Of a DNA stretch of 32,364 bases, positions 8,071 to 28,955 are shown piece after piece (positions within the stretch are counted from its first letter, which is position 1; every line of letters starts with the position of its first letter). The DNA comes from Thermoproteota archaeon (GTDB lineage Archaea; Korarchaeota; Korarchaeia; Korarchaeales; Korarchaeaceae). A program made the position numbers and the translations under genes. The stretch lies in the NCBI GenBank assembly GCA_027491415.1, contig JAOZFH010000016.1:1-32364 (forward strand), written 5' to 3'. The notes under the pieces are model-generated. The model had not been told where the DNA came from. It saw nothing but the letters and a program-made list of their open reading frames with translations, and ran no database searches.

Positions 8071-8754
8071 ATGTGGAGGGAAGATGAAGAAATGTCGGAG
8101 GAGGACCACTCGACCGAGGAGCCCCCCGATGTGAGTCGCAAAAAGGTGAAGATCGTCATAATGGGGCCGTCAGAGGCGGGTAAAACCACGTACCTCCGGG
8201 CCCTAGACGACAAGGCGGTCTTAATGGTCGACAAATCTGGCAGAACCGTCGGAATGGATGTCGGGTTCGTGGCCGTAGACCCGCATAGCGGGGAGATCAT
8301 GAGGCGCGATGAGGTTAGGGGGAAGGCCGGGTTTTTCGGCAGGCTGCTTGGCCGGGAGAGACCGTCCCCAGTGATCGTAGAGATTCAGCTCGTTAGTACG
8401 CCAGGTCAGGAGAGGTTCAGGTGGGTCAGAGAGGCCCTCGCTAGGGGTGTGCACGGCGCCATTCTCATGGTGGACTCCTCTAGGCCTGACCAAGTGGGTG
8501 AGGCGGGGGTCGTATACCACGAGATCCGCGCCATCCTACCCGAAGTCCCCGTGGTGCTCGTTGCCAACAAGCAAGATCTAGAGGGGTCGCTCTCCCCCCA
8601 GGAGGTGAGAGATCTCACCGGTCTGGATGAGCTGGAGGTCTTTGGAACGTCCGCCCTCAAAGGAGAAAACGTAGAAGCTCCACTTAAGAGGCTCATCCAG
8701 CTTATCTTGGGGAGGGAGCTTGACCAAAAGGCCAATTGGGCCGCAATGGCCTAG
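8071..8754 (+). CDS. Small Ras-like GTPase (MglA/Arf-like)
   Basis: 227 residues counted from the first ATG. Residues 32-40 are a P-loop (GPSEAGKTT). RTVGMDVGF at 58-66 is the switch I/G2 region, STPGQERF (109-116) is G3, ANKQD (165-169) is G4, and TSALKG (193-198) is G5. G3 has Ser in place of the usual Asp before TPGQ, as in other MglA-like GTPases that lack the canonical Asp. Compared with minimal Ras folds there is a charged insertion of about 25 residues (73-98, with RRDEVRGKAGFFGRLLGRER) between switch I and G3. A GGAGGG at 8075-8080 precedes the in-frame ATG at 8092 by 11 nt, so translation may begin there (220 residues); the first 20 residues are acidic and probably disordered either way. 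Expected to cycle with the Roadblock protein as its regulator. Confidence 0.85.
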   Translation: MWREDEEMSEEDHSTEEPPDVSRKKVKIVIMGPSEAGKTTYLRALDDKAVLMVDKSGRTVGMDVGFVAVDPHSGEIMRRDEVRGKAGFFGRLLGRERPSPVIVEIQLVSTPGQERFRWVREALARGVHGAILMVDSSRPDQVGEAGVVYHEIRAILPEVPVVLVANKQDLEGSLSPQEVRDLTGLDELEVFGTSALKGENVEAPLKRLIQLILGRELDQKANWAAMA

Positions 8755-14007: not shown

Positions 14008-15774
14008 CTACGGAGTGCAGATATCCTTTAGCCTCTGGTGGTAGTGCTCCAGCGCCCTCTGAACGTAGTCGGGGGATATCAGGCCGTGGGGACTCGGCGT
14101 TTCGAAGATCCTGTCCGGGATCCTGAGCCTAGACGGGTCAAAGCCCGCGTCCACCTTGAGCCTCATCCTCTCGCGGTAGATCCTCCAGCCGAGTTCCCGG
14201 AGGTCCTCTACGGAGCGCCTTATGCCGAGCGGGTCCAGGGCCTTGGAGACCATCTCTGGCCTGTAGATCCCCCTCGCAAAGAGGCACACGACTAGGCTAT
14301 TGAGGACCATTCTCCAGGCCTCCTCGGCCATGAGGTCGTCCACAACCTGCTCAGGATCTGGGAGCTCGGCCCTCTTTTGATCGTAAGAGTAGCCGGCGTT
14401 GTCGAGGTGGCTGTGCCTCCCGCCTATCAGGAAGCCGATGTGGGCGGCCGGGCCGGTGTGATACCCGGGCATCTCATTCCCGCCGAACGCCATGGCGAAC
14501 TCGGATCCTCCGTAGATCTGAGACGCCCTCTCCACACCCTGTGCCAGCGCAGAGTAGAAATCGTTCGGCTGCTCGACCAGCAGGGAGATTGCCCTCCTAT
14601 AGGCCTCGGCGTCACCCCACCTCAGCTTCACGATCGTGTCCCCCTCCCTGACCAGCCCGCGCTCCAGCGCCTCCGTGGCCCACGCCAGGGCGACGCCGGT
14701 GCTCATTGCGTCCAGCCCAACCCTCTCCACCTCGTGGATGAGCCTGAGGAGCCGCTTGGCGTCTCCAACCCCGAGCATGCTCCCGAGCGAGTAGGTAGGC
14801 TCGTAGTCGTAGGAAACGACCGTGGTCTTGTAGAAGTACTTCTCGTGGGGGTAGGGCTCTCTGATCCCCGCCAGGTGTATGCAGGCAACGGGGCAGCCGG
14901 AGCAGGCAGCCCTGCGGATCAGGTAGTTCTCGGCCATGTGCTCCCCCGAGATGCCCTCAGCCTGCTCGAACCTGCCCGACTTGAGGTTCTTGGTCGGGAG
15001 GGCCCCAATCTCGTTCAGGGGGAGGACGTTCATCGGCGTGCCTAGGTCGTGATACTTCCTCATTAGGTTGGACTTGGTGGAGAGTTCGTAGAGCTCGTCG
15101 TACACCTCCCTGTACCCCCTCCTGTCCGGGACCTCCAGGGATCGCCTTCCGGAGACCACTAGGGCCTTGAGCCTCTTGGCCCCGAATACCGCGCCGAGGC
15201 CGAGCCTCCCGAAGTGCCGGTAGGTCTCCGTGACCACGCAGGCGAACCTCACTAGCCTCTCCCCGGCCAGCCCAATCCTCATTATGGTCCTGAACCCGGG
15301 GTTCGGCTCCCTCTCCCTGATCACCCTGCCCACGGTCTCGCTGCTGGACATGCCCCACAGGGCACTTGCGTCCCTGAACTTCACCTCATCCTCGTGAACT
15401 GCGACGTACACCGGGGACTCGCTGGCCCCCCTGATCACTATCGCTTGGTAGCCGGCGAACTTGATGGCGAGGCTGCTCCTCCCCCCGGCGTAGCTCTCTC
15501 CGAGGTTGCCGGTGAGGGGGCTCCTGAACACCGCGACGGTCTTGGACCCCATCGGGTAGGCCCCATTGAACGGGCCCACCGCGAACACTATGCCGTTCTC
15601 CGGGCCCAGGGGATCGGCCCTCTCCACTCCCTCCTCCCTGGCGAGGGCTACCGCCAGGCCAACGCCCCCGAGGTACTCCTCGATCAGATCCCTCCGATCC
15701 TCCACCCAGGACCTCTTCCTGGTAAGGTCCACGTACAGGACCCTCGCCAGGTTCACCGGAAGCTTGACGGCCAC
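14008..15774 (-). CDS. Aldehyde:ferredoxin oxidoreductase family tungsten enzyme
   Basis: 588 residues from a GTG start immediately after the ferredoxin stop codon. It covers the whole AOR fold: N-terminal domain with GPFNGAYPMGSKTV and SPLTGNLGESYAGG (residues 67-98), then the pterin-binding centre region. Four cysteine ligands for one [4Fe-4S] cluster are present: C291-x2-C294-x3-C298 in CSGCPVACIH, and C497 in SLVVCLFARG. The family binds tungsten (sometimes molybdenum) in two pterins and oxidises aldehydes to acids, reducing ferredoxin at low potential. Substrate specificity (AOR, FOR, GAPOR, WOR) cannot be read from sequence. The tight pairing with a four-cluster ferredoxin resembles the YdhY/YdhV and WOR-type pairs and suggests that this ferredoxin is the electron-transfer subunit. 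Confidence 0.9.
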   Translation of the reverse strand: MAVKLPVNLARVLYVDLTRKRSWVEDRRDLIEEYLGGVGLAVALAREEGVERADPLGPENGIVFAVGPFNGAYPMGSKTVAVFRSPLTGNLGESYAGGRSSLAIKFAGYQAIVIRGASESPVYVAVHEDEVKFRDASALWGMSSSETVGRVIREREPNPGFRTIMRIGLAGERLVRFACVVTETYRHFGRLGLGAVFGAKRLKALVVSGRRSLEVPDRRGYREVYDELYELSTKSNLMRKYHDLGTPMNVLPLNEIGALPTKNLKSGRFEQAEGISGEHMAENYLIRRAACSGCPVACIHLAGIREPYPHEKYFYKTTVVSYDYEPTYSLGSMLGVGDAKRLLRLIHEVERVGLDAMSTGVALAWATEALERGLVREGDTIVKLRWGDAEAYRRAISLLVEQPNDFYSALAQGVERASQIYGGSEFAMAFGGNEMPGYHTGPAAHIGFLIGGRHSHLDNAGYSYDQKRAELPDPEQVVDDLMAEEAWRMVLNSLVVCLFARGIYRPEMVSKALDPLGIRRSVEDLRELGWRIYRERMRLKVDAGFDPSRLRIPDRIFETPSPHGLISPDYVQRALEHYHQRLKDICTP

Positions 15775-16179
15775 TCAGCTCACCTCCCTCATCTCGATCA
15801 CACCGTAGGGGCAGTACTCGACGCAGTAGCCGCAGTAGGTGCAGATGACAGGCTTGTCCACCTCCTCGTCCCAGAGGATGGCGCCGAACGGGCAGGCCTC
15901 GACGCAGTAGCCGCAGCCGATGCACTTGTTCGGGATCAGGCGAACCCCTCCACCGTCTCTGGGAAGTAGGGCATCCTCGGGGCAGACTTTGGCGCACGGT
16001 GGGTTCTTGCAGGCCCTGCACACGATGACGACGAAACCCCTCTCGACCCCGCCCGCGCTCCGGATGTGTATGGCCGTCTTACCGTAGCCGACCTCAGCGA
16101 ATCGACGGTTACATGCCAGCATGCAGCTCCCACATCCGACGCACAGGTCCGAGTCGACCACGGCGACTCGCCTTACCAT
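15775..16179 (-). CDS. Polyferredoxin, four [4Fe-4S] clusters, partner of the AOR-family enzyme
   Basis: 134 residues with sixteen cysteines in four C-x2-C-x2/4-C-x3-C groups: CVGCGSCMLAC (13-23), CRACKNPPCAKVC (54-66), CIGCGYCVEAC and CTYCGYCVEYC. This is the layout of the DmsB/HycB/YdhY type of electron-transfer subunit, with no signal peptide, so it acts in the cytoplasm. It ends exactly where the AOR-family gene begins (TGA directly followed by the GTG start), so the two are co-translated and most likely form a complex. The ATG at 16179 is about 40-50 nt below an AT-rich promoter. Confidence 0.92.
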   Translation of the reverse strand: MVRRVAVVDSDLCVGCGSCMLACNRRFAEVGYGKTAIHIRSAGGVERGFVVIVCRACKNPPCAKVCPEDALLPRDGGGVRLIPNKCIGCGYCVEACPFGAILWDEEVDKPVICTYCGYCVEYCPYGVIEMREVS

Positions 16180-16219
16180 CGGACGTCTCCGTCGGGATCT
16201 CGCGTAAGTAAACAGATAA

Positions 16220-16230
16220 CTTAATATTTC
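16220..16230 (-). promoter_or_regulatory. TATA element of the ferredoxin/AOR operon
   Basis: Minus-strand GAAATATTAAG, inside a strongly AT-rich block (16205-16250) that stands out from the GC-rich surroundings. It is about 45 nt before the ATG at 16179, giving an estimated leader of 15-20 nt. Confidence 0.5.
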
Positions 16231-16251
16231 ACTAATACATAATATCGATCG

Positions 16252-16797
16252 TTACCCCCTCCTGTCGAAGTAGGGGTTCTTACCCCTTGCCGCAAGCGGT
16301 ATCCCAAGGGCCACGGTCGATCCGGGGAGCAGCCCCAGGGAAATGGCGGCGTCTCCCACGCTGTACATGACTCTGTTGTCAACGTTGAGGAGGGAAGCGA
16401 GTTTGACGGCCGATCCAACCGCTATGCCCAGGTCCATGACCTTGAACTCACAGAATGGGCCTCTCATCGGCTCACCTCGGGATCTCCACGCCTCCACCCG
16501 CTCAGCACAGCTCGGGTATCCGCACATCCTGCAGTCCATGCCCAGCGCCTCCTGAGCCCTTGCGCCGATCACCACGACGCAGTCGGAGGCCTCAACGTTC
16601 CCGGCGTCCCTCTCGTAGAAGGAGTAGCCCCTCTCCCGAGAGAGTTCTCGCATCTTCTCCGCCAGCCTCAGCAGGCCGTCCCCCTTGACGATCGTGGCCT
16701 CGATCGAGTCAACCCCCTTTGCCTTTGGGGCGGTTCTCGCGGCTACCAGCATGAGTCGAGCAACCTGAATCACGGCCTCGAACCCCTGGTCCCTCAC
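16252..16797 (-). CDS. DUF2148 protein with an Fe-S (C-x2-C-x4-C) domain
   Basis: 181 residues from a GTG start. It matches DUF2148, a family of small archaeal and bacterial proteins with no assigned reaction. Residues 89-116 carry C89-x2-C92-x4-C97-x18-C116 (CRMCGYPSC and later GPFCEF), the spacing of the four-cysteine Fes domain that binds one [4Fe-4S] cluster in CODH/acetyl-CoA-synthase subunits and related proteins. The preceding SDCVVVIGA and the closing DLGIAVGSAVKLAS region are also family features. It lies 72 nt upstream of the ferredoxin/AOR operon on the same strand but is separated from it by that operon's own AT-rich promoter. A link to AOR maturation or electron transfer is only a guess. 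Confidence 0.78.
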   Translation of the reverse strand: MRDQGFEAVIQVARLMLVAARTAPKAKGVDSIEATIVKGDGLLRLAEKMRELSRERGYSFYERDAGNVEASDCVVVIGARAQEALGMDCRMCGYPSCAERVEAWRSRGEPMRGPFCEFKVMDLGIAVGSAVKLASLLNVDNRVMYSVGDAAISLGLLPGSTVALGIPLAARGKNPYFDRRG

Positions 16798-17044: not shown

Positions 17045-17063
17045 GTTACCCTTTTCCGGTAAC
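17045..17063 (+). promoter_or_regulatory. Inverted repeat GTTACC-N7-GGTAAC upstream of the mutase operon
   Basis: GTTACC (17045-17050) and GGTAAC (17058-17063) form a perfect inverted repeat about 50 nt upstream of the probable TATA element. Related GGTAAC/TTACC elements lie in the dpp operon promoter region (28980-28985; 29270-29285). This could be an operator of the NrpR-like regulator, by inference. Confidence 0.4.
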
Positions 17064-17167: not shown

Positions 17168-18853
17168 ATGTCGTCCGGCGAGAAGAGTGAGGGAAGGCGA
17201 CCGAAGATCCTCGCCGCCGCCCTTGGCGAGGACGTCCACGTGGCTGGGATAATCAAGTTTCTGAGGCTGGCGGAGCAGGTCGGATATGAGACGATATTTC
17301 TGGGGCCGGCAAACACCCCCGAGGAGATAGTGGCGGCGATAAAGGAGACAGACCCCGACATAGTCGGAATAAGCTACAGGCTGATGCCAGAGTCCGGAAG
17401 GTACTGGATAGAGCGGTTCATAAGCGCGGTGAAGGAGGCTGGCCTGGAGGACAAGAGGTACGTGTTCGGGGGCACTCCGCCCGTCGCCGAGGTGGCCAAG
17501 AGCTTCGGGTTCTTCGACAGGGTGTTCAGCGGCAGGGAGACCATGGACGAGGTCGTGTCCTACCTGAAGGGAGGGGGCGAGGCTGGCAGGGGAGAAGAGC
17601 ACTACCCGCAGACCACCGTCGAGAGGATCGCCTGGAAGTACCCCTACCCCATCATCAGGCAGCACCTGGGGCTGAGCTCCGTCGAGGAGACCGTGGAGGC
17701 GGCCAGGAAGGTGGCCGAGTCCAAGCTCATCGACGTGATCTCAATAGCCCCGGACCAGGAGTTCCAGGAGAACTTCTTCCACCCGGAGAAGTGGGACCCC
17801 GGGAGGGCCGGGGCTGGAGGCGTGCCCATAAGGTCGGAGGACGACCTCATCAAAATCTACGAGGCCACCAGGACCGGCAACTACCCGCTTCTGAGGTGCT
17901 ACCAGGGCACCAGCGACCTGTTCAAGATGGCCGACCTCCTGGTGAGGACCATCAAGAACGCCTGGGCGGCCATCCCGATCTTCTGGTTCAGCAGGCTCGA
18001 CGGGAGGGGGCCCCTGGACCTAGTCGAGGCCATAGACGAGCACCAGAGGCTGATGGCCTGGCACGGCGAGAGGAACATCCCCGTCGAGCTGAACGAGCCC
18101 CACCACTTCGAGCTGAGGGATGCGCCCGACGTCATCGCGGTGGCCGACGCTTTTCTGTCAGCCTACAACGCCAAGAAGGCGGGTGTGAAGCACTACATCG
18201 CCACGCTGATGTTCGACCTCCCGCCTGGGATCTCGGCCGAGATGGACCTGGCCAAGCAGCTGGCCAAGATAGACATAATCAAGCCCCTGGAGGACGAGAA
18301 CTTCAAGATCTTCATACAGACCAGGACCGGCCTGTCCAGCTACCCGCCGGACCTCGACGCGGCCAAGGGCCACATGGCCTACTCCGTTACGATGCAGATG
18401 CACCTGAAGCCCCACATAATCCACATGGTGGCGTACACCGAGCCCGATCACGCCGCCACGGCCGAGGAGATCATAGAGAGCGGCAAGATCGTGCACCAGG
18501 TGATCAGCGACACGCTGCACGGCCTGCCCGACGTGACCAAGGACCCGAAGATCCTGGCCAGGAGGGAGGAGCTGGTGAGGGAGGCCAAGATCACGCTGGA
18601 CGCCATTAGGAAGATCGCTGACCCCGATGTCGAGGACCCGTGGACCGACCCCGAGACGCTCGCCAGGGCCCTGAAGGTTGGGATACTGGACGCGCCTCAC
18701 CTGAAGAACAACCCCTACGCCAGGGGAGAGATCGAGACCAGGATCATCAACGGGGCAGCCTACGCGGTCGACCCGGAGACCAAGAGACCCCTCCCCGAGA
18801 GCGAGCGCATCCAGAGGATCTTGGACGACTACTTCAAGGGAAGGCTCATCTGA
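17168..18853 (+). CDS. Cobalamin-dependent mutase-like protein (B12-binding domain fused to a glutamate-mutase-E-like barrel)
   Basis: 561 residues. Residues 12-135 form a B12-binding Rossmann domain with the base-off/His-on signature D22-x-H24-x-x-G27, a serine in GISYRL (66-72), and the glycine pair FGGTP (100-104) that cradles the nucleotide tail. Residues 150-500 look like an alpha/beta barrel with aromatic- and Arg-rich stretches, most like the catalytic E subunit of B12 carbon-skeleton mutases; the assignment to the glutamate-mutase group rests mainly on the adjacent MutL-type gene. In classic glutamate mutase the two parts are separate (GlmS, GlmE) with the B12 domain as its own protein; here the B12 domain is N-terminal and fused. 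Substrate is not predictable. First gene of a three-gene operon; next start is 30 nt on. Confidence 0.75.
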   Translation: MSSGEKSEGRRPKILAAALGEDVHVAGIIKFLRLAEQVGYETIFLGPANTPEEIVAAIKETDPDIVGISYRLMPESGRYWIERFISAVKEAGLEDKRYVFGGTPPVAEVAKSFGFFDRVFSGRETMDEVVSYLKGGGEAGRGEEHYPQTTVERIAWKYPYPIIRQHLGLSSVEETVEAARKVAESKLIDVISIAPDQEFQENFFHPEKWDPGRAGAGGVPIRSEDDLIKIYEATRTGNYPLLRCYQGTSDLFKMADLLVRTIKNAWAAIPIFWFSRLDGRGPLDLVEAIDEHQRLMAWHGERNIPVELNEPHHFELRDAPDVIAVADAFLSAYNAKKAGVKHYIATLMFDLPPGISAEMDLAKQLAKIDIIKPLEDENFKIFIQTRTGLSSYPPDLDAAKGHMAYSVTMQMHLKPHIIHMVAYTEPDHAATAEEIIESGKIVHQVISDTLHGLPDVTKDPKILARREELVREAKITLDAIRKIADPDVEDPWTDPETLARALKVGILDAPHLKNNPYARGEIETRIINGAAYAVDPETKRPLPESERIQRILDDYFKGRLI

Positions 18854-18883
18854 GCTTAGCGTGAACCTGCGGGAGGCGATTGG

Positions 18884-19969
18884 ATGAAGATAGCCGTGAT
18901 GGGAGCGGGCCACGGTGGAAAGGCCATGTCCGCCCACCTTGGGCTGATGGGGCACGAGGTCAGGCTCTACAACTACAAGGAGAAGGAGCCGGAGTTCAAG
19001 GTGGACCTCGAGGAGGTCAGGAGGAGAGGAGGGATAGAGCTGGAGGGGGCGGTGGAGGGCTTCGGCCCCATCGCCCTCGCCACCACCGACGCCGGGGAGG
19101 CCGTGAGGGGCGCCGACCTGATCATGGTGGTCGTCCCCGCCCACGCCCACAAGTACATCGCCCGGTCAGTTGCTCCCCACCTTCAGCCGGGTCAGAAGAT
19201 CCTGTTGAACCCCGGCAGGACCTTCGGGGCGATCGAGTTCAAGAGGATACTGGGTGAGAGGGCCGAGGGCGTGATAGTCGGGGAGGCCGAGACCCTGATC
19301 TACGCGGCCAGGGGGCTGTCGCCCACCAGGGTGAAGGTGCTGGGAGTCAAGAAGGAGGTCAAGCTTGCCGCCCTCCCAGCTCCCGACACCGGGGAGCTGC
19401 TGGACACTATCCGCCAGTTGTACCCGCAGTTCGACGGGGCCAGGGACGTCCTCGAGACCAGCCTGACCAACATAGGGGCCGTGTTCCACCCCACAATAAC
19501 GCTCATGAACGCCGGCTGGATCGAGCGCGGCGGGGACTTCGAGTTCTACGTCGAGGGCGCCAGCCCCTCCGTGTCGAAGGTGCTGGAGAGGGTCGACGCC
19601 GAGAGGGTGGCCCTGGCGAGGGCGCTCGACACCCGCGTCCTGAACCTGCTGGAGTGGCTTGAGGAGAAGTACGGAGCGAAGGGCAAGGATGTCTACGAGG
19701 CCCTGCAGAACAACGAGGCCTATAGGGGTATCAAGGCGCCCTCCACGCTCGCCGTCAGGTACCTGCTTGAAGACGTCCCCACCGGCCTGGTCCCATACGC
19801 GGACGTCGGGGAGCAGGTCGGCGTGAGCACTCCCGTGTCCAGGTCCCTCATATCCCTAGCGTCGGCGGTCTTCGAGAGGGACTTCTACGCCGAGGGGCGG
19901 AGCGCGAAGAACCTCGGGCTGGAGGGGATGTCTGCGGAGGAGATAGTGGCATTCGCGAGGGGCGAATAG
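18884..19969 (+). CDS. NAD(P)-dependent opine dehydrogenase-like protein
   Basis: 361 residues. The N-terminal Rossmann domain opens with VMGAGHGGKAM (5-15), the dinucleotide-binding glycines. LLNPGRTFGAIEF (107-119) and the C-terminal helical domain with TNIGAVFHPTITLMNAG (195-211) are hallmarks of the octopine/nopaline dehydrogenase family, where the histidine (H202 here) is the catalytic base and the asparagine (N196) helps bind the carboxylate. Family enzymes reversibly join an amino acid to a 2-oxo acid by reductive condensation, or split the resulting opine by oxidation. The gene lies between a B12 mutase and its MutL-type partner, with a 30-nt and a 3-nt gap, so it is expected to act in the same pathway. 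It is cytoplasmic, with no signal peptide. Ketopantoate-type reductases share the fold but lack this HP motif. Confidence 0.82.
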   Translation: MKIAVMGAGHGGKAMSAHLGLMGHEVRLYNYKEKEPEFKVDLEEVRRRGGIELEGAVEGFGPIALATTDAGEAVRGADLIMVVVPAHAHKYIARSVAPHLQPGQKILLNPGRTFGAIEFKRILGERAEGVIVGEAETLIYAARGLSPTRVKVLGVKKEVKLAALPAPDTGELLDTIRQLYPQFDGARDVLETSLTNIGAVFHPTITLMNAGWIERGGDFEFYVEGASPSVSKVLERVDAERVALARALDTRVLNLLEWLEEKYGAKGKDVYEALQNNEAYRGIKAPSTLAVRYLLEDVPTGLVPYADVGEQVGVSTPVSRSLISLASAVFERDFYAEGRSAKNLGLEGMSAEEIVAFARGE

Positions 19970-19972
19970 CCC

Positions 19973-21382
19973 TTGAGGGCCCTCCTCATAGACTTCGGCA
20001 GCACCTTCACAAAGGCCGTGGTGGTGGACCTGGCGGAGGAGCGGGTGGTCTCCTCCGCAAAGGCCCCCAGCACAGTGGACACGGACATCAGGCGCGGCCT
20101 GGCCGGCGCCCTGGAGAAGCTGGGGCTCTCGCTGAGCGACCTGTCCGATGGCCCGTTCGAGTACAAGCTGGCCTGCAGCAGCGCGGCCGGCGGCTTGAAG
20201 ATGGTCGTGGTAGGGCTCGTGCCGAAGTACAGCGCCGAGGCTGGCAGGCGGGCGGCGCTGACGGCCGGGGCGAAGGTCATTGGGGTGTACTCCTTCGAAC
20301 TCACCAAGAGCGAGGTGGCGTCGATAGAGGCCCAGGGACCTGACATCGTCCTCCTAACGGGCGGGACGGACGGGGGAGACAAGAGGACAATAACCCACAA
20401 CGCCAGGATGCTTGCCGCCTCCGGGCTGAAATGTCCCATCTTGGTGGCTGGGAACAAGGAGGCCAGGGACGACGTGGTGGAGATACTCTCATCGGCGGGT
20501 AAGGAGGTCTACTGGACCGAGAACATCATGCCGGAGCTGGGCAAGCTCAACGTGAGGCCCGCAAACGAGAAGATCAGGGAGATCTTCCTGAAGAGGATCA
20601 TTCAGGCCAAGGGGCTCGATAAGGTGACGAAGATGCTCCACATCCTCATGCCGACCCCCTCCGCCTCCTTGGGGGCGGCGGAGCTGCTGGCGAAGGGGAC
20701 CAAGTCGCTTAGCGGGATGGGCGAACTCCTCGCGGTGGAGATCGGCGGAGCCACGACCAACGTGTACAGCGTGGCCGAGGGCAAGTCGAAGCTCCCAGGG
20801 GTCGTCGAGAAGGGTCTTGAGGAGCCCTACGTGAAGAGGACCGTGGAGGGAGACCTGGGCGTCAGGGTGAGCGCGGAGTCGCTGATGGAGGCTGCGGGCT
20901 TGGAGAGGATCGTGTCGAAGATGAGGGAGTACGTGACGGACATAAGGCCGGAGGCCGTTGAGGAGCACATCCGCATGCTGCGCCGGCAGACCAGCTACCT
21001 GCCCAGGACCTACTTCGACTGGCTGGTGGACGAGGCGCTGGCAAGGTCGGCGGTGGAGCTGGCCGTGGAGAGACACGTTGGGAGGCTCGAGGAGATACCG
21101 ACGCCGATGGGCAGGTTCTACGTCCTCACGGGTAAGGACCTCACCGGGGTCGAGACCGTGGTCGGAACCGGAGGACCGATCGTAAACAGCAAGAGGCCGT
21201 GGAAGGTCCTCGGCGAGGCTGTCTACGACGAGTCCCGCCCCTTCGTTCTGAAGCCGAAGAACCCGGAGCTGTACGTGGACAGGGACTACGTTTTCTGGGC
21301 TATGGGCCTCCTCTCGGGCGAGGAGCCAGACAAGGCGCTCAAGATCCTGCTGGACTCGGTGTCCCCGGTTAGACGGGGATGA
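19973..21382 (+). CDS. MutL/GlmL-type protein (glutamate mutase accessory, ASKHA ATPase)
   Basis: 469 residues from a TTG start 3 nt after the previous stop. It has an actin-like ATPase fold: phosphate-1 motif LLIDFGSTFTKAVVVD at 4-19, LLTGGTDGGDKRT near 122-134 and the adenosine region LAVEIGGATTNVYSV near 250-264. GTGGPIVNS near 400 completes the site. This matches the MutL/GlmL family that is encoded beside glutamate mutase and ornithine aminomutase; it is thought to reactivate or chaperone the B12 enzyme, although direct evidence is limited. The name is shared with, but unrelated to, the mismatch-repair MutL. It ends 14 bases inside the convergent regulator gene, the tightest possible tail-to-tail arrangement. 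Confidence 0.85.
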   Translation: MRALLIDFGSTFTKAVVVDLAEERVVSSAKAPSTVDTDIRRGLAGALEKLGLSLSDLSDGPFEYKLACSSAAGGLKMVVVGLVPKYSAEAGRRAALTAGAKVIGVYSFELTKSEVASIEAQGPDIVLLTGGTDGGDKRTITHNARMLAASGLKCPILVAGNKEARDDVVEILSSAGKEVYWTENIMPELGKLNVRPANEKIREIFLKRIIQAKGLDKVTKMLHILMPTPSASLGAAELLAKGTKSLSGMGELLAVEIGGATTNVYSVAEGKSKLPGVVEKGLEEPYVKRTVEGDLGVRVSAESLMEAAGLERIVSKMREYVTDIRPEAVEEHIRMLRRQTSYLPRTYFDWLVDEALARSAVELAVERHVGRLEEIPTPMGRFYVLTGKDLTGVETVVGTGGPIVNSKRPWKVLGEAVYDESRPFVLKPKNPELYVDRDYVFWAMGLLSGEEPDKALKILLDSVSPVRRG

Positions 21383-22352
21383 CGTTCCTGTCGAAGGCGC
21401 CGAGGTCGTCCATGGCGGTGTCGAAGGCCATCCTCAGGTCGAATCCGCCCTCCTTGATCATGGCCGCAAAGTTGGCCCCGGTGACGCTGATCACCACTCC
21501 CCTGAGCTTTCCGGTTCGGAGGCCGTAGGCGAAGCCAGGCTCCCTGATCTCCATTATCCCCTCAAAGCCCAGCTCTCTCATCTTGTTCAGGATCTTCTGC
21601 GCCTTTGGTATGCTGTTGTAGGGGATCTCACCGAAGGTGGCCAGGACCGTGCCCGTCCCCCTCTTGGCAGCCTCGGCGACCCTCGTCATTCCGGCGAATA
21701 TGAGGAGCTGAGAGGGGCTTATGGTGGTTCCGGAGTAGTGCATGACCTCCGCGAAGGTCGTGGGCCTGTAGTCCTTCAGCTCCAGTAGTCCCACGCCCTT
21801 CACGCTGACCGGAACTCCGTTGCGGAGGAGGATGCCGTACAGGGTGTTTGAGGAGACGTACTTGATCTCGAGCAGGTCTCCCCTCCTCAGGCCGGTCTCC
21901 CTGACCTGATACTTCGGGTAGAAGAGGAGCTTCGGGACCTCCTTCCCGAGGCTGATCACGTGCCGCATGACCCAGGTGAAGTCCTCCCTCCTGATGAACA
22001 GCTTGTTGGCTATCACCGATCCGCTGCCGGTCGAGAGGTCGAAGTCCATCTCGGCGATCCTCTGGTACATCCTGTCCAGCATCCACTCCATCCTGGTGGA
22101 GACGGTGAGGGCCCGCATCCTCCTGCGGCCCTCGCTGGTTATCTGCCTGGCCTTCCTGACCTTCCGTGTGAGCCCAAGCTCGTCCATGAGCTTCAGGTAG
22201 TAGCGGATCGTCCTCTGGCTGAGGTAGATGCCCCTCCTGTTTAGCTCCCGCTGAATCTCGCCCGACGTGGCCGGCCCCTCGATCCCGTCGAGGATGGCCA
22301 GGATCTCGAGCATGTTCTCATTCAGCTTTCGAGTCTCCTGTACAGGTGACAT
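21369..22352 (-). CDS. NrpR-like transcriptional regulator (winged helix + DUF128)
   Basis: 327 residues. Residues 13-80 form a winged-helix domain (MLEILAILDGIEGPATSGEI through RTIRYYLKLMDELGLT). The remainder carries the NrpR regulatory domain, DUF128: LLEIKYVSSNTLYGILLRNGVPVSVKG, PTTFAEVMHYSGTTISPSQLL and LATFGEIPYNSIPKA. NrpR in methanogens represses nitrogen-assimilation genes and is released by 2-oxoglutarate. This protein has a single DUF128 copy, as in some NrpR subgroups, and its own operator is unknown. A good Shine-Dalgarno (GAGGGGAGG) precedes the ATG. The start overlaps the end of the dpp ATPase gene by 31 nt, so it belongs to the transporter operon and probably regulates it, and perhaps the convergent mutase operon. 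Confidence 0.85.
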   Translation of the reverse strand: MSPVQETRKLNENMLEILAILDGIEGPATSGEIQRELNRRGIYLSQRTIRYYLKLMDELGLTRKVRKARQITSEGRRRMRALTVSTRMEWMLDRMYQRIAEMDFDLSTGSGSVIANKLFIRREDFTWVMRHVISLGKEVPKLLFYPKYQVRETGLRRGDLLEIKYVSSNTLYGILLRNGVPVSVKGVGLLELKDYRPTTFAEVMHYSGTTISPSQLLIFAGMTRVAEAAKRGTGTVLATFGEIPYNSIPKAQKILNKMRELGFEGIMEIREPGFAYGLRTGKLRGVVISVTGANFAAMIKEGGFDLRMAFDTAMDDLGAFDRNVIPV

Positions 22353-23299
22353 GCCACCATCCTCCCCTCGCCGGGGAGCGGCACGAGGGCCGGCTCCTCC
22401 TGGTCGCAGGGGTCAAACCTCCTGGGGCACCTGGGGTGAAACCTGCACCCAGGAGGGGGGTTCGCCAGGTTCGGGACCGTCCCGGGGATCTCGGTAACCC
22501 GCCCCTTCCTGCCACCCCTGCCCGGTATCGCGCCCAGCAGCCCCCGGGTATAAGGGTGTTTCGGGTCAGTGAGCACGTCGACGGTCCTGCCCACCTCAAC
22601 GAGCTTCCCGGCGTACATGACGCCCACTCGATCCGTGTACTCGGCCACGATGCCTATGTTGTGCGTGATCAGCAGGATGGACATGTTGAGCTTCCTCCTC
22701 AGCTCGTCGAGCAGCGTGAGGATCTGGGCCTCTATGGTGACGTCCAGGTTCGTCGTGGGCTCATCGGCTATCAGCAGCTCTGGGTTGTTGGCGAGGGCAA
22801 TCGCGATGACCGCCCTCTGCCGCATGCCGCCGCTGAACTGGTGCGGGTACTCGTGGACCCTGGCCTCCGCCCCGGGGATGCCCACGAGCTTAAGCAGCTC
22901 TATCGCTCGGGCCTCGGCGTCCTTCCTACTCACCTCCGGGTTGTGGGCGAGTATGGTCTCGACTATCTGGTCCCCTATCGTGTAGACGGGGTCGAGGGCG
23001 GCCGTGGGGTCCTGGAATATCATCGAGATTCGGTCCCCCCTGATCTCCCTCATCCTGTCCTCGGGGAGCTGAAGGATGTCCTCTCCCTGGAAGTAGATGC
23101 TCCCGCCCGCCACCCTACCGGGCGGGGGCACGAGCCTGAGGATTGCGTTGCCTAGGGTGGACTTCCCGCACCCCGACTCCCCGATGAGGCCGAAGAACTC
23201 CCCGCTCTCGAGCTCTAGCGACACGCCGTCGACGGCCTTGACCACGCCGTCGAAGGCGTAGTAGTACACCTTCAAGTCTCGTATCTCGAGGAGCGTCAC
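22322..23299 (-). CDS. Peptide/opine-type ABC transporter ATPase (DppD-like)
   Basis: 325 residues. Walker A GESGCGKS (40-47), Q-loop in IFQDPTAALDP, signature FSGGMRQ (155-161), Walker B LLIADEP (175-181) followed by TTNLD (Asn replacing the usual Ala), and switch histidine in LLITHN. The C-terminal extension with PPGCRFHPRCPRRFDPC is the oligopeptide/dipeptide-family tail, whose cysteines may bind an Fe-S cluster. It pairs with the DppF-like ATPase encoded two genes earlier to drive the importer. It overlaps the C45 gene start-stop by 4 bases and the regulator by 31 bases. Confidence 0.92.
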   Translation of the reverse strand: MTLLEIRDLKVYYYAFDGVVKAVDGVSLELESGEFFGLIGESGCGKSTLGNAILRLVPPPGRVAGGSIYFQGEDILQLPEDRMREIRGDRISMIFQDPTAALDPVYTIGDQIVETILAHNPEVSRKDAEARAIELLKLVGIPGAEARVHEYPHQFSGGMRQRAVIAIALANNPELLIADEPTTNLDVTIEAQILTLLDELRRKLNMSILLITHNIGIVAEYTDRVGVMYAGKLVEVGRTVDVLTDPKHPYTRGLLGAIPGRGGRKGRVTEIPGTVPNLANPPPGCRFHPRCPRRFDPCDQEEPALVPLPGEGRMVACHLYRRLES

Positions 23300-24375
23300 G
23301 GCATACCACCTCCGAGGTCGAGGGTCAAGTAGGGGTGCTCGCAGGGGGGCCCCTCCGCGAACAGGATCCTAGACCTCTTTGGAAGCGCTATCATTGAGGC
23401 CACGGTCTCCACCGGCACGTCCCCCTCGCCGACGTGCCTGCAGATGGAGTGCCCGCCGGGGTCGTGGTACCTCATGAGCCTCTTTACGAAGTTGAGGTCT
23501 ATGGTGCCGAGGGCGCCTCTCACCCTCTCGTCCAGGTGCCTCCACCTGGCAAGGGTGTCCTCCCTCTCGTAGGCCGTGTAGTGGTAGGGGTCGTAGTACT
23601 TCTCGCTCATCCGGGCCGACTTGAAGTGGTTCGTGCGGAAGGCGTACCCCTCCTCCGGGATCTCCACATCCAGCTCCCTGTATCCCACCTCGACCACCGC
23701 TATGTCCCCCTTGGCGTCCCCCAGCGTGAAGGTGAACTGCCCCAGCCTGGGGACGGACTTGAGGAAGTCTATGGCCTCCTCCACCGTCGAGCAGCTCTCG
23801 AGGATCATCTTGGCCAGGACGTTGTCTGGGAGGCCCACGCCGATGTCTGAGGAGGCCACGTAAGTGGAGAACACCGTGAGGCCCCTCTCGTTCATGCCGC
23901 CCCCCGCCACGCCCGGGTCGCCCGCGTTGGTGGAGGCGAAGTACGCCAAACCGCCCTTCGGCCGGGCGTAGACGAAGAGATGCAGCGGCTTGTATCTGAC
24001 CCTCTTGTCCCTGTTCTTGGCCAAGATAGGCTCCCCGTGTGATGTGTGCTCCGCCTTCACGGCCCAGACCGAGCACTCGAGGCCGTAGTGGAGCATGTGC
24101 CGGAGGAACGTAGAGCAGGTGGTTTCGAAGAGGATGTCCCTGGCGAACCAGGCCCCCTCCGCCACCCCCTCCAGCATCTGGACGAACTCGGGGGAGTGCC
24201 TCTCCACTACCTCTCTCATGTCCTCCACGAGCTTCTCCAGGGAAGGGTTCTCTCCTATCTCCCTCCTGACTGCGTCGAAGAGTTCTCGGATGTACGGGGT
24301 CAGCCCCCTTATCTCCTTCCCCAGCTGAAGCCCCATCTCGTAGGGATCTCCAGCCAGGGCCACCATCCGGAGCAT
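23296..24375 (-). CDS. C45 family Ntn-hydrolase (acyl-CoA:6-APA acyltransferase-like amidase)
   Basis: 359 residues. Residues 80-123 contain ETTCSTFLRHML, then LECSVWAVKA, then LAKNRD. C101 with the downstream N121-R122-D123 matches the autocatalytically exposed N-terminal cysteine nucleophile and oxyanion-hole region of peptidase family C45 (fungal isopenicillin N acyltransferase group); the fold continues with STNAGDPGVAGGGMNERGLTVF and ends with CEHPYLTLDLGG. Such enzymes cut or exchange amide bonds, often N-acyl amino acids. The residue before Cys here is Glu, so self-cleavage would be between E100 and C101. No signal peptide: it is cytoplasmic. It is encoded between the two transporter ATPases (10-nt gap and 4-nt overlap), suggesting that it processes the imported compound. 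Confidence 0.82.
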   Translation of the reverse strand: MLRMVALAGDPYEMGLQLGKEIRGLTPYIRELFDAVRREIGENPSLEKLVEDMREVVERHSPEFVQMLEGVAEGAWFARDILFETTCSTFLRHMLHYGLECSVWAVKAEHTSHGEPILAKNRDKRVRYKPLHLFVYARPKGGLAYFASTNAGDPGVAGGGMNERGLTVFSTYVASSDIGVGLPDNVLAKMILESCSTVEEAIDFLKSVPRLGQFTFTLGDAKGDIAVVEVGYRELDVEIPEEGYAFRTNHFKSARMSEKYYDPYHYTAYEREDTLARWRHLDERVRGALGTIDLNFVKRLMRYHDPGGHSICRHVGEGDVPVETVASMIALPKRSRILFAEGPPCEHPYLTLDLGGGMP

Positions 24376-24385
24376 CTTCTACCAA

Positions 24386-25354
24386 TCACCCCCCGACCTT
24401 GTGGCAGGCGACCCAATGCCCCGGCTCAACCTGCACCAGGGGCGGCTCCTCCCTCCTGCAGAGATCGTCGGCCAGCGGGCACCTGCTCGAGAACCTGCAC
24501 CCCGGCGGGGGGTTGGCGGGATCTGGGGGGTCCCCGCGGAGGAGCATCTTCTTCCTCCCCCGCTGCCTCGGGTCGAGCGTCGGCACGGAGGAGAGGAGGG
24601 CCCTCGTGTAGGGGTGTAGGGGTCTCTCGAAGAGTTCCTCCGTATCGGCGGACTCCACCAGCTTCCCGAGGTACATCACGTTGATCCTGTCAGAGATGTG
24701 CTTGATCACGTTCATGTCGTGGGTTATGAAGAGGTAGGTGAGCCCGAACTCCCTCTGGAGGTCCAGCAGCAGGTTGAGGATCTTCGCCTGAACCGAGAGG
24801 TCCAGGGCCGATGTGGGCTCGTCCAGTATGAGGAACTTCGGCTTGACTATCAGGGCCCTGGCTATGGCTATCCTCTGCCTTTGCCCGCCGCTGAACTCGT
24901 GGGGGAACCTCTCTACGTCAGCCGCCCTGAGCCCGACCTGCTCCAGCATCTCCCTGATCATTGACTCCCTCTCCTCGAAGCTCAGGCTGGGCATGTGCAC
25001 CTTCAGCGGCAGGCCGACTATGTCCCTGACCCTCTTCACCGGGTTGAGGGAGAGGTAGGGGTCTTGGAACACTATGCCCATCTTCCTGCGGACCCTCGTG
25101 AGCTCCCTCCCCTTGAGCTCGAACAGGTTGACGCCCTCGAATATGGCCTGCCCCCTAGTGGGTTCGTAGAGCCTCAGCACCGTCAGCGCCAAGGTGGACT
25201 TTCCGGACCCGCTCTCGCCGACGAGCCCGACGGTCTGTCCCTCCTCGACGTCGAAGCTGACGCCGTCGACGGCCTTGACAACCCTCCTCTCGAATACCCC
25301 CCTCTTGATCTCGAAGTACTTGGTCACGTCCCGGAGCGAGAGAAGCGCCGTCAT
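24386..25354 (-). CDS. Peptide/opine-type ABC transporter ATPase (DppF-like)
   Basis: 322 residues. Walker A GESGSGKST (46-54), signature FSGGQRQ (154-160), Walker B FLILDEP (174-180) with TSALD, and switch histidine in LFITHD are canonical. The tail PPGCRFSSRCPLADDLC near residues 284-300 is the cysteine-containing extension of the oligopeptide family. The ATG overlaps the permease gene on its 5' side by 4 bases. With the DppD-like subunit it forms the heterodimeric motor of the importer. Confidence 0.93.
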   Translation of the reverse strand: MTALLSLRDVTKYFEIKRGVFERRVVKAVDGVSFDVEEGQTVGLVGESGSGKSTLALTVLRLYEPTRGQAIFEGVNLFELKGRELTRVRRKMGIVFQDPYLSLNPVKRVRDIVGLPLKVHMPSLSFEERESMIREMLEQVGLRAADVERFPHEFSGGQRQRIAIARALIVKPKFLILDEPTSALDLSVQAKILNLLLDLQREFGLTYLFITHDMNVIKHISDRINVMYLGKLVESADTEELFERPLHPYTRALLSSVPTLDPRQRGRKKMLLRGDPPDPANPPPGCRFSSRCPLADDLCRREEPPLVQVEPGHWVACHKVGG

Positions 25355-26268
25355 TGTACCTCCACAACCCCCAGCTTCTTCTTGATGGTAGGATCGAGCG
25401 CGTCCCTGAGCGAGTCACCCAGCAGGTTGATTCCCAGCACGACCATGGTTATCGCGAGCCCGGGGAACATGGCGATCCACCAGGCGTCCAGGATGTGCTG
25501 CCTCCCGGTGCCCAGCATGAGGCCCCACGACGGGTTTGGCGGCTTCACGCCTATCCCGATGAAGCTGAGCGAGGCCTCGTAGATTATGTTCCTGGCTAGC
25601 TGGAACGTTGAGAGCACGATCAGCGACGGGAAGGTGTTGGGCAGGGCCTCCCGGAATATTATGTGGGCGCTCCCCACCCCTATAGCCTTCGCCGCCAGGA
25701 CGAAGGGCCTCTCCTTCAGCGTGAGGAACTCTCCCCTCACGACCCTCGCGAACGGGACCCAGGATGTGAGGGTCATGGCGGCGACCACGTTCCAGTAGCC
25801 CGGTCCCAGGACGACCATCAGGGAGATCGCCATGAGCACCGCCGGGAAACTCAGCCAGAAGTCGACTATCCTCATCAGGACCTCGTCTATGAGCCCCCCG
25901 AAGTACCCGGACAGGGCCCCCAGCGAGACCCCAACGAGGACGGCCAGGGTCACCGACACGGCCGCGACGGACAGCGAGATCCGAGCTCCGTATATCAGCC
26001 TGCTCAGGAGATCCCTCCCGATCGCGTCGGTCCCCAACGGGTGCTCCCAGGATCCGCCGAACCCCACGGGGGGCTGCAGGGAGTTCGCCAGGTCGGCCTG
26101 GTAGGGGTCGTAGGGCGCGACCACCCCGGCGAACAGGGCGGACATCAAGAACACAAGGAATATCGTCCCGCCCACTATCGCGCCGGGGTCTCTCTTCATG
26201 TAACTGACGGTGGGGCCCCCCAGAAACCTGAGGAGATCCTCTCTGAGAGTCGTCAGCGTCCTGCTCAC
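25351..26268 (-). CDS. Peptide/opine-type ABC transporter permease (DppC-like)
   Basis: 305 residues from a GTG start directly after the upstream permease stop. The N-terminus (PTVSYMKRDPGAIVGGTIFL) and the following PYDPYQADLANSLQPP are typical of OppC/DppC; an EAA loop occurs at REALPNTFPSLIVLSTFQLA, and about six membrane helices are visible. It forms one half of the pore, paired with the DppB-like permease. Confidence 0.93.
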   Translation of the reverse strand: MSRTLTTLREDLLRFLGGPTVSYMKRDPGAIVGGTIFLVFLMSALFAGVVAPYDPYQADLANSLQPPVGFGGSWEHPLGTDAIGRDLLSRLIYGARISLSVAAVSVTLAVLVGVSLGALSGYFGGLIDEVLMRIVDFWLSFPAVLMAISLMVVLGPGYWNVVAAMTLTSWVPFARVVRGEFLTLKERPFVLAAKAIGVGSAHIIFREALPNTFPSLIVLSTFQLARNIIYEASLSFIGIGVKPPNPSWGLMLGTGRQHILDAWWIAMFPGLAITMVVLGINLLGDSLRDALDPTIKKKLGVVEVQ

Positions 26269-27294
26269 TCACCTCACCCCCCTGGTGCGCGGGTCCGTCA
26301 CGAGAATCAGGATGTCCGCCAGCAGGTTGGAGAGAACGAAGAAGAGGGCCGATATCATCACGGCGGCTATGACGACTGGATAGTCCCTTGCGTAAATCGC
26401 GTCTACTGCCAGCCTGCCCATGCCGGGCCACGCGAACACGGTCTCCACGAAGAAGGACCCCGTTAGGAAGAAGCCGAGCTGGAGGGCGACGATGTTTATG
26501 GTCGGTATGAGGGCGTTCCTGAGGGCGTGCTTGTAAATCACGGCGCTCTCCCTGAGGCCCCTGGCCCTGGCCGCCCTGATGAACTCGGCCCCAAGGACGC
26601 TGATCAGGTTGTTCCTGAGGAGCCTCACTATCAGGGCCGCCGCCGGGATGCCCAGCGACAGGGCCGGGAGGATTATGTGGCTGAGGGCTGACCTGACCAC
26701 CTCCCAGTCCCCGGCGAGTATCCCGTCGAGGATGTAGAAGCCCGTCACCCTCTCGACGGTCAGGGTGACGTCCAGCCTCCCCGAGATGGGGAGGACCTTG
26801 AGGGTCGTCCCGAACACGAGGATGAGCAGCATGGCTATCCAGAAGTTGGGCATCGAGAAGCCCACGACGGAGAGGCCCACGATGCCCCTGTCCACCGCCC
26901 CTCCCTTCAGGGCGGCGAATATGCCGGCGGGGATGGCTATCACGATGGCCACGGCCAGGGCGAAGAAGGCCAGCTCAACCGTGGCCGGAAGCCTCTCGAG
27001 AACCACTTCCAAGGCTGGCCTGTTGAACTGGTAGGATATGCCGACGTCCCCGTGAATCAGCTGCCTCAGGAAGTAGAAGAACCTGACGTAGAGGGGCCTG
27101 TCAAGTCCGTACTTGTGCCTGAGCTGCTGAATGAACTCCTCGCTGACGTCGCTCTGCTTACCTATCAGCATGGTGACGGGGTCTCCCGGGACGAAGCTGA
27201 ACACCAGGAAGACGATTATCGCAATTCCAAACATCACGGGAATGAGGCCGACGATCCGCCGTCCGATCAGCCGGAGGAGATCACTGTCTAACAT
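26269..27294 (-). CDS. Peptide/opine-type ABC transporter permease (DppB-like)
   Basis: 341 residues, about six membrane helices. LIGRRIVGLIPVMFGIAIIVF at the N-terminus, VPGDPV and the EAA-loop sequence KHALRNALIPTINIVALQ followed by GSFFVETVFAWPGMGRL are classic OppB/DppB features. It follows the binding-protein gene by 44 nt; that gap contains a T-rich tract on the coding strand, so this gene and those after it may be transcribed less than the binding-protein gene. Confidence 0.93.
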   Translation of the reverse strand: MLDSDLLRLIGRRIVGLIPVMFGIAIIVFLVFSFVPGDPVTMLIGKQSDVSEEFIQQLRHKYGLDRPLYVRFFYFLRQLIHGDVGISYQFNRPALEVVLERLPATVELAFFALAVAIVIAIPAGIFAALKGGAVDRGIVGLSVVGFSMPNFWIAMLLILVFGTTLKVLPISGRLDVTLTVERVTGFYILDGILAGDWEVVRSALSHIILPALSLGIPAAALIVRLLRNNLISVLGAEFIRAARARGLRESAVIYKHALRNALIPTINIVALQLGFFLTGSFFVETVFAWPGMGRLAVDAIYARDYPVVIAAVMISALFFVLSNLLADILILVTDPRTRGVR

Positions 27295-27313
27295 TGGCGC
27301 ACACGCTCCCGCC

Positions 27314-27326
27314 TAAAAAAGAAAGA
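27314..27326 (-). terminator. T-rich tract between dppA- and dppB-like genes (possible attenuating terminator)
   Basis: On the minus strand the sequence 13-25 nt after the binding-protein stop reads TCTTTCTTTTTTA, unusual in this GC-rich context and the kind of T tract at which archaeal RNA polymerase terminates. Because the permease genes follow, it would be a partial terminator that lets the binding protein be made in excess. Confidence 0.4.
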
Positions 27327-27338
27327 GGGGGGGAAGGA

Positions 27339-28955
27339 TTAGACGCTTATGTCGGCATCCACCAGGTTGTACCTCTCGTCGGTCCTGGGGGTGAACGTGA
27401 CCTCCTTCCTGTAGACCCACGGGTCGAACTGCTCCCACAGCCAGATGGCGGGAGCGTCCTCCTGCAGGATCCTCTCGAGCTCCATGAACTTCTGGGCCCT
27501 CTGCTCCGGGTCGAGCGTGGCGAGGGCCTCCTTCATAAGCCTAGTGACCTCGTCGTTGTGGTACTGGAACGCGTAGGTGTCCTTCTCCCTGGCGAAGGTG
27601 GAGTTCACGTTCCCGTAGAGCTCCAGCTCGCCGCATCCCCAGGAGCCGAAGTACATGTCACCCTTGGCCTTGAGGAGGTACTCGTTCTTGATGGTGCCCC
27701 AGTCCATGAGCTGGATCGTTACGTTGACTCCCACCTGCCCGAGGTAGTAGGCGATGGCCTCGGCCTGGTCCTTCCTCCACTCCTCGTCGTACATCATGAC
27801 GGCGTCAAAGCCGTCAGGGTAGCCAGCCTCGGCGAGCAACTGCCTCGCCCTGTCGGGGTCGTACGGGAAGGGCTCCAGGTTCGGGTCGTGCCCCAGGACG
27901 CCGGGGAAGGACATGCAGGCTATCCTGCGTCCGTAGCCCTTCAGCACGTTCTTAATGATGGCGTCAACGTCCACCGCCATGTTGAGGGCGTGCCTGACCC
28001 TCTTGTCGTTGAACGGGGCCTTGTGGGTGTTCAGGAACACGAAGACGGACCTGGCCGCCCTGACCTTCTCGACCACCAGGTTCGGGTCCTTCGCCATCTC
28101 CTCGGCCTGGTCCGCGGTGAACCCATAGGAGATGTGGATCTCGCCCGCCTTCAGGGCCTGCATCCGCGTGGCGGAGTCCGGAATGACCTTGAAGATCAGC
28201 TTGTCGACCTTCGGCGGGCCGACCGGCGGCACCTCAGCTGGACCGCCCCAGTAGTCGGGGTTCTTCTCGAAGACTATCCTCTCCCCGGGCACCCACTCCA
28301 CGAACTTGAACGGGCCGGTGCTGAACGGGTTCTTGAAGAAGTCCTCCCCCTGCGCCTCGACGGCGTGCTTGGGCAGTATCTCTTGGTACGTGAGGTCCAC
28401 CATCAGCGGGCCGCTCGGGTACTTGGTCTTGATCTCCAGTGTGTAGTCGTCGATTATCGTAATGGTGTCGATCTCGTCTATCATGCTGGCCCTGGGGGAG
28501 TTCTGGTTGGGGTCTAGGATCCTCTCCAGCGTGAACTTCACGTCCTCCGCCTTCAGCTCGGTCCCGTCGTGGAACTTGATCCCTTTCCTCAGCTTCAGCC
28601 TCCAGGTCAGGTCGTCGACGAATTCGTAGGACTCCAGCAGGTGCGGGATGACCCTCATGTCGTTGGTCCTCCAGAACAGCGGCTCGGCGTACTGCTGGAT
28701 GACGCTCTCGGTGACCCTCTTCCTGTGCATCGCCGGGTCGAGGGTCACTATGTCCTCCTTCAGCCCGAAGATGAGGACCTTCTCCTTCGGCGGCGGGGCG
28801 GTCGTCGGCGCCGCGGTCGTGGAGGGGGGCTGGGTGGTGGGGGTGGGGGTTGGGGACGGCTTTTTGGCCACCTTATACCCTATGATGCCCAAGGCGGCGG
28901 CCACGACGGCCGCTCCGGCCACCTTCAAGAAGTTACGTCGGGGGGTCTCGGACAT
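27339..28955 (-). CDS. Peptide/opine-type ABC transporter substrate-binding protein (SBP family 5, DppA-like), Tat-type signal
   Basis: 538 residues. The N-terminus TPRRNFLKVAG is a near-perfect twin-arginine (Tat) motif, followed by a hydrophobic stretch (AAVVAAALGIIGY) and then a Thr/Pro-rich linker at 34-58, as in archaeal binding proteins held at the membrane. The mature part is SBP family 5: EDIVTLDPAMHRKR, WRLKLRKGIKFHDGTELKAEDV, LDPNQNSP and RKGIKFHDG-type motifs, with KNPFSTGPFKF. Family ligands include oligopeptides, opines, nickel chelates and amides; none is predictable here. Shine-Dalgarno AGGTGG lies about 5 nt before the ATG, and the promoter is at 28980-29013. First gene of the operon that ends with the NrpR-like regulator. 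Confidence 0.93.
   Translation of the reverse strand: MSETPRRNFLKVAGAAVVAAALGIIGYKVAKKPSPTPTPTTQPPSTTAAPTTAPPPKEKVLIFGLKEDIVTLDPAMHRKRVTESVIQQYAEPLFWRTNDMRVIPHLLESYEFVDDLTWRLKLRKGIKFHDGTELKAEDVKFTLERILDPNQNSPRASMIDEIDTITIIDDYTLEIKTKYPSGPLMVDLTYQEILPKHAVEAQGEDFFKNPFSTGPFKFVEWVPGERIVFEKNPDYWGGPAEVPPVGPPKVDKLIFKVIPDSATRMQALKAGEIHISYGFTADQAEEMAKDPNLVVEKVRAARSVFVFLNTHKAPFNDKRVRHALNMAVDVDAIIKNVLKGYGRRIACMSFPGVLGHDPNLEPFPYDPDRARQLLAEAGYPDGFDAVMMYDEEWRKDQAEAIAYYLGQVGVNVTIQLMDWGTIKNEYLLKAKGDMYFGSWGCGELELYGNVNSTFAREKDTYAFQYHNDEVTRLMKEALATLDPEQRAQKFMELERILQEDAPAIWLWEQFDPWVYRKEVTFTPRTDERYNLVDADISV

Follow-up and report, generated by a model that had tools for sequence, protein, structure and literature searches.

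This study concerns a stretch of 32,364 nucleotides (hereafter the window) of the contig JAOZFH010000016.1 from a Thermoproteota archaeon (GTDB family Korarchaeaceae; assembly GCA_027491415.1), and within it two neighbouring genes that encode a fused adenosylcobalamin-type mutase and an opine (N-carboxyalkyl amino acid) dehydrogenase (OpDH). The two genes recur as a pair in archaea and bacteria, and the dehydrogenases of the pair carry a residue signature known from enzymes that act on acidic amino acids. The explanation we favour, to which we give about an even chance, is that the two enzymes form a module, conserved between domains of life, for the metabolism of an acidic-amino-acid opine, and that this module is catabolic in the window archaeon. 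A pathway joining an opine dehydrogenase with a glutamate-mutase-like enzyme was not found in the literature searched, in agreement with the initial annotation of this DNA, whose author knew of none. The novelty lies in the pairing itself, in the uncharacterised mutase family and in a substrate prediction that can be tested.

A conserved pair of mutase and opine dehydrogenase genes

The mutase gene (17168..18853, plus strand; 561 amino acids) joins a B12-binding domain (PF02310, 42.5 bits) to a TIM barrel, and is followed on the same strand by the OpDH gene (18884..19969; octopine-DH family PF02317, 165 bits against a cut-off of 30). Relatives were sought in a scan of 84,980 genomes and came from Asgard archaea, Neomarinimicrobiota, Cloacimonadota, Chloroflexia, an Armatimonadetes-labelled metagenome-assembled genome (MAG) and two Thermoproteota-labelled MAGs. 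In targeted searches the mutase turned up in 89 of the 228 Asgard genomes searched (~39%). Among Chloroflexota it was present in 14 of 251, in the Cloacimonadota phylum in 5 of 125 and in the Neomarinimicrobiota phylum in 2 of 149; 3 of the 29 genomes from the window's own phylum have it.

Every mutase locus not truncated by a contig end has an OpDH gene on the same strand (58/58, a count that takes in loci L029 and L140, completed by hand), nearly always directly adjacent and often with overlapping stop and start codons. At the seven loci lacking OpDH, the mutase or its operon lies at a contig end in every case. Along the mutase tree the order of the two genes switches four times, at least two of these switches lying on well supported branches. 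Divergence of the mutase is matched by divergence of OpDH (r=0.91), a value reached in none of 2000 permutations, the best of which gave 0.14. The coupling signal is as strong as gene context can provide.

The opine dehydrogenase carries an acidic-amino-acid signature

The closest solved structure to the window OpDH is 1BG6 (ArODH/CENDH; E=8e-83). The window enzyme shares with ArODH and with a group of hot-spring opine dehydrogenases (mODHs) the PF02317 fold and the catalytic His-Asp and Trp, here H202, D297 and W258, together with the Rossmann domain. The study that describes them found the mODHs to be ~40% identical to ArODH and to favour L-Asp and L-Glu with pyruvate, and its double mutants trace this preference to two residues, Arg at position 111 (ArODH numbering) and Gly at 198 (PMC10787698). 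ArODH itself has A111 and N198 and prefers apolar amino acids; the window OpDH is like the mODHs, its counterparts in the alignment being R112 and G198.

The signature holds throughout the pair. Among the 57 core mutase-linked OpDHs, R112 and G198 are each present in all 57, and both residues occur in 8/8 divergent OpDHs that adjoin a mutase fused to a MutL-type protein (see below); a further type adjoining such fusions (P0002) has R112 in three of four and G198 in four of four. Plasmid-borne control OpDHs with no adjacent mutase, two of whose eight loci come without gene annotation, have R112 in 0/8 and G198 in 1/8. Position 35 is Arg in 56 of the 57 linked enzymes and Tyr in the window enzyme; Arg at this position is described in the same source as a marker for NADPH (PMC10787698). 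The mutase-linked OpDHs thus bear a signature of acidic-amino-acid specificity that has been validated by experiment, which agrees with their having a glutamate-mutase-like partner, and from the Arg/Gly pair we predict for the window OpDH a specificity for L-Asp or L-Glu with pyruvate.

A second OpDH gene lies near a mutase-MutL operon at locus L189 (2501-3619). It has R112C and, at the catalytic histidine, H202N, and is perhaps a decaying or repurposed copy.

The mutase is related in fold to glutamate mutase but differs in its active site

The B12-binding motif DxHxxG of the mutase reads D22-V-H24-V-A-G27, and H24 and G27 are invariant, the divergent subfamilies included. No Pfam or NCBIfam model matches its C-terminal part. 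Of the glutamate mutase family models, PF06368 (Met_asp_mut_E) gives no match and NF002612 reaches 30 bits against a cut-off of 110. The structure was predicted by AlphaFold from 11 relatives (mean predicted local distance difference test score, pLDDT, 82). Foldseek placed glutamate mutase subunit E at the top (6h9e, E=4e-14; 1cb7, E=2e-13) with moderate TM-scores of ~0.57; next in rank were ornithine 4,5-aminomutase and lysine 5,6-aminomutase. A comparison of hidden Markov models (hhalign) against four GlmE sequences aligned residues 166-535 over 344 columns with a probability of 96% and E=3e-9.

The substrate-binding residues of glutamate mutase, which we take to be R66, R100 and R149 (the arginine claw), E171, Y177 and Y181 and whose spacing was checked, align with H166, Q200, Y245, A/C/G267, W273 and G279; at R164/H166 and at R243/Y245 this register may be shifted by two residues. 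In a set of 59 mutase sequences H166, Q200, Y245 and W273 do not vary, and conservation is 97% or higher at eight arginine positions outside the B12 domain. The active site is thus strictly conserved yet unlike that of glutamate mutase, which fits a multiply charged substrate and not free glutamate: the loss of the glutamate-binding residues makes free glutamate a probable non-substrate, and the eight arginines suggest a substrate bearing several carboxylates. The term "glutamate-mutase-like" used in the initial annotation is consequently borne out for the fold, but not for the family assignment or the glutamate-binding residues.

Glutamate (methylaspartate) mutase GlmES and its partner GlmL/MutL are among the nearest known systems, sharing the DxHxxG B12 domain, the TIM barrel and the MutL partner. 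In contrast to GlmES, the present mutase is a single fused chain in the order B12 domain-barrel, its family model and active-site residues differ as described, an opine dehydrogenase stands in place of methylaspartate ammonia lyase, and MutL is mostly absent in Asgard archaea. The D-ornithine 4,5-aminomutase and lysine 5,6-aminomutase likewise have a barrel and B12 architecture, and ornithine-racemase-like and MutL genes lie near some members of our family. The known ornithine and lysine aminomutases require pyridoxal phosphate (PLP) and a larger B12 subunit with the PLP lysine; our mutase differs from them in its fusion order and in having no Pfam or NCBIfam match. A true B12 aminomutase was rejected as its identity, since no such family matches and the structure is closer to glutamate mutase.

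These data also bear on the idea that OpDH acts as an amino acid dehydrogenase, the mutase turning glutamate into 3-methylaspartate and OpDH deaminating the latter towards 2-oxobutyrate, isoleucine or propionate. A glutamate-mutase route to isoleucine is known, and both the fold of the mutase and the acidic signature of OpDH would suit 3-methylaspartate. Yet the window OpDH retains all three catalytic residues of opine dehydrogenases, the mutase has lost the residues that bind glutamate, and the importer and amidase described below would be left unexplained. Moreover, the characterised enzymes with the Arg/Gly signature form opines with pyruvate (PMC10787698). We regard this idea as distinctly improbable.

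The Cloacimonadota phylum also has a third mutase subfamily, highly divergent at 31-36% identity (L148, 1228-3096; L149, 6356-8218), whose B12 motif reads DAHTLG; the L148 gene is located with OpDH, ATP-grasp and ornithine-racemase-like (Orr-like) genes.

MutL is an optional partner

In the window, OpDH is followed by a gene for a MutL/GlmL-type mutase partner, a probable reactivating factor (19973..21382, plus strand, TTG start; PF13941, 543.7 bits), which scores above the GlmL equivalog cut-off (NF040745, 582 bits versus 475). MutL adjoins the mutase in the window's genus and in a sister Asgard lineage (L022), and is fused to it in two other lineages or phyla (L145/L150-type proteins). Any MutL-type protein is found in only 3 of the 228 Asgard genomes, against 89 with the mutase; nearly all Asgard genomes with this B12 mutase have no MutL-type protein at all. 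An obligate partnership is rejected for Asgard archaea by these counts. MutL is the partner of the mutase where present, and optional.

Importer and C45 amidase are joined to the pair in Chloroflexota

The mutase operon of the window meets a minus-strand operon tail to tail, the 3' ends of mutL and nrpR overlapping by 14 base pairs. In the direction of its transcription, the second operon encodes DppA, a family-5 substrate-binding protein with a twin-arginine-like signal (27339..28955), the Dpp/Opp-type permeases DppB (26269..27294) and DppC (25351..26268), the ATP-binding cassette (ABC) ATPase DppF (24386..25354), a C45 (AAT family) autoproteolytic amidase/acyltransferase (23296..24375; NF040521, 194.8 bits against a cut-off of 85), the second Dpp/Opp-type ABC ATPase DppD (22322..23299) and, as terminal gene, an NrpR-like regulator with a winged helix and one NRD domain (21369..22352; PF01995, 155.6 bits). 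It thus comprises a full Dpp/Opp-type importer set with C45 and the NrpR-like gene. Each of the ten genes named in the initial annotation proved to be an open reading frame in the place and of the family proposed. The arrangement is identical in a sister genome of the same genus (L021/L147; ~97% DNA identity).

Elsewhere in the window lie genes for a Ras/Arf-like small GTPase (8071-8751, plus strand; PF00025/PF00071) and a membrane pyrophosphatase (8882-10891). Divergent from the mutase operon, the minus strand of 14008-16797 encodes an aldehyde:ferredoxin oxidoreductase, a polyferredoxin and a Cys-rich protein (DUF2148-like by eye only).

The initial annotation had read the two operons as one uptake-and-conversion set, while conceding that they might simply be neighbours. 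If they were unrelated, dpp, C45 and NrpR would serve peptide scavenging and only mutase, OpDH and MutL would form a module. In Asgard archaea, as in most of the bacteria found, the pair indeed has none of dpp, C45 and NrpR beside it, so that the transport part is an add-on, and within the window's phylum both sets occur together in just two near-identical genomes. Against this stand the Chloroflexota, where 21 of the 298 genomes searched in one class have a second type of mutase, fused to MutL (1264 amino acids, PF13941 at 713-1234). At loci L173 and L182 a single operon runs from an RpiR regulator through OpDH, mutase::MutL, DppA, DppB, DppC, DppD and DppF to C45, and variants in order or completeness occur at L174, L176, L179/L193, L180/L190, L181/L191, L184/L192 and L187/L196; the fusion proteins of these genomes are 62-79% identical. 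Across the 298 genomes C45 tracks the fusion: 14 have both, 7 the fusion only, 6 C45 only and 271 neither (Fisher p=1e-14). The window C45 and its Chloroflexota homologues conserve the Cys nucleophile and the NRD motif, and no signal peptide was seen in the window protein. Some Chloroflexota operons additionally contain an ornithine-racemase-like enzyme, a gamma-glutamyltransferase and an amidohydrolase. Because equivalent functions are combined in these operons, a chance neighbourhood in the window is unlikely, and we hold it improbable that the two operons are unrelated. The joined set is thereby supported, and the doubt about mere neighbours is for the most part resolved towards a functional link, the Asgard pair without dpp and C45 apart.

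The NrpR-like gene and regulatory sequences

The nitrogen-regulator homologue has both the helix-turn-helix and the NRD domain expected of it. It is tied to the mutase set in the window's genus only, outside the wider Chloroflexota pattern, and no operator of the NrpR type (GGWA-N6-TWCC) was found in the window. No riboswitch was detected by Rfam. A perfect palindrome, GTTACCCTTTTCCGGTAAC (GTTACC-N7-GGTAAC; 17045-17063), lies ~100 base pairs upstream of the mutase and is kept in the sister genome; it was rejected as an operator, having no other copy in the window at up to two mismatches, while 39% of shuffled sequences contain at least one match. A look-alike before dppA was likewise discarded, not being conserved in the sister genome.

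Amide-forming neighbours in other lineages

Some Asgard loci, and those of Neomarinimicrobiota and Cloacimonadota, combine the pair with a D-Ala-D-Ala-ligase-like protein of the ATP-grasp type and an Orr-like racemase, the latter scoring 320-422 bits against the Orr model cut-off of 480. A protein like asparagine synthetase B (AsnB) accompanies the pair in four Chloroflexota loci and in the Asgard loci L022 and L093; in some Chloroflexota the pair is followed by AsnB, a glycosyltransferase and glucosyl-3-phosphoglycerate synthase. The N-terminal glutaminase Cys is missing from the Asgard AsnB-like proteins (L022, 8391-9734; L093, 8431-9954; L087, 12754-14292) and retained in those of Chloroflexota; for the Asgard proteins a role like that of beta-lactam synthetase was considered. 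Two Asgard loci have a membrane protein after the pair, by eye a transporter of the major facilitator superfamily (MFS).

Such neighbours would suit a module that is biosynthetic everywhere, producing an acidic opine, perhaps amide-capped, as compatible solute or metal chelator, with Dpp and C45 only recovering or remodelling it. The ATP-grasp and racemase genes, the compatible-solute setting of the AsnB, glycosyltransferase and glucosyl-3-phosphoglycerate synthase genes and the putative MFS transporter all speak for it. So do staphylopine-type opinophores, whose clusters (CntKLM and CntABCDF) illustrate that racemase, opine dehydrogenase and Opp-family ABC importer can co-occur; the present loci differ from them in the B12 mutase, no nicotianamine-synthase-like enzyme was seen, and NCBIfam Cnt models score far below cut-off. 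The window-like operons, however, add amide hydrolases (C45, gamma-glutamyltransferase, amidohydrolase) and an importer, which is a catabolic layout, and neither an exporter nor a ligase lies near the set in the window. A purely biosynthetic module is in our judgement rather unlikely. The amide-forming neighbours of some lineages suggest that one compound may be built there and degraded elsewhere.

Discussion

For the acidic-opine module that we favour, we infer the substrate, the order and direction of the steps, the role of C45 and the regulation as follows. The substrate would be glutamate, aspartate or 3-methylaspartate carrying an N-(1-carboxyethyl) group. With NAD(P)(H), OpDH would join the acidic amino acid to pyruvate through a C-N bond or cleave that bond, and the fused mutase would rearrange the carbon skeleton in the manner of glutamate <-> 3-methylaspartate, acting on the opine or on the released amino acid, with MutL presumably maintaining its activity. 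In the window archaeon and Chloroflexota, the Dpp-type importer may take up the compound as an amide or peptide, whose amide bond C45 would then cleave in the cytoplasm; the products of mutase and OpDH would be pyruvate, reduced cofactor and an acidic amino acid. A coupling of the module to nitrogen supply may come from the NrpR-like protein.

Several points weigh against this explanation. The claw arginines of glutamate mutase are all replaced, by the invariant H166, Q200 and Y245, and E171 by a variable A/C/G, so that, judged from the alignment, even an acidic amino acid as substrate of the mutase is not certain. The amide-forming neighbours (Ddl-like ATP-grasp, AsnB) suggest synthesis and not breakdown in many genomes. 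RpiR regulators, the type found in the Chloroflexota operons, usually sense sugar phosphates. Finally, the window's genus is represented by only two near-identical genomes.

A bolder proposal, which we offer as speculative and rather unlikely, is that the mutase is the first B12 enzyme that rearranges an opine itself, interconverting the N-(1-carboxyethyl) derivatives of glutamate and 3-methylaspartate, or a close analogue. If true, the product would be made and amidated as a solute by some microbes, namely those with ATP-grasp or AsnB, and imported, de-amidated and degraded by those with Dpp and C45, and a hitherto unknown compound would circulate among Asgard archaea, Chloroflexota and others.

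A pair so strictly conserved over two domains of life points to a metabolic step that has no name yet, served by a B12 enzyme that has no domain model. The OpDH signature turns this into a concrete substrate prediction, testable by few assays. The mODH study mentions neither a mutase nor an operon (PMC10787698); if the acidic-opine module is real, it would place hot-spring opine dehydrogenases, so far characterised only as biocatalysts, in a physiological context.

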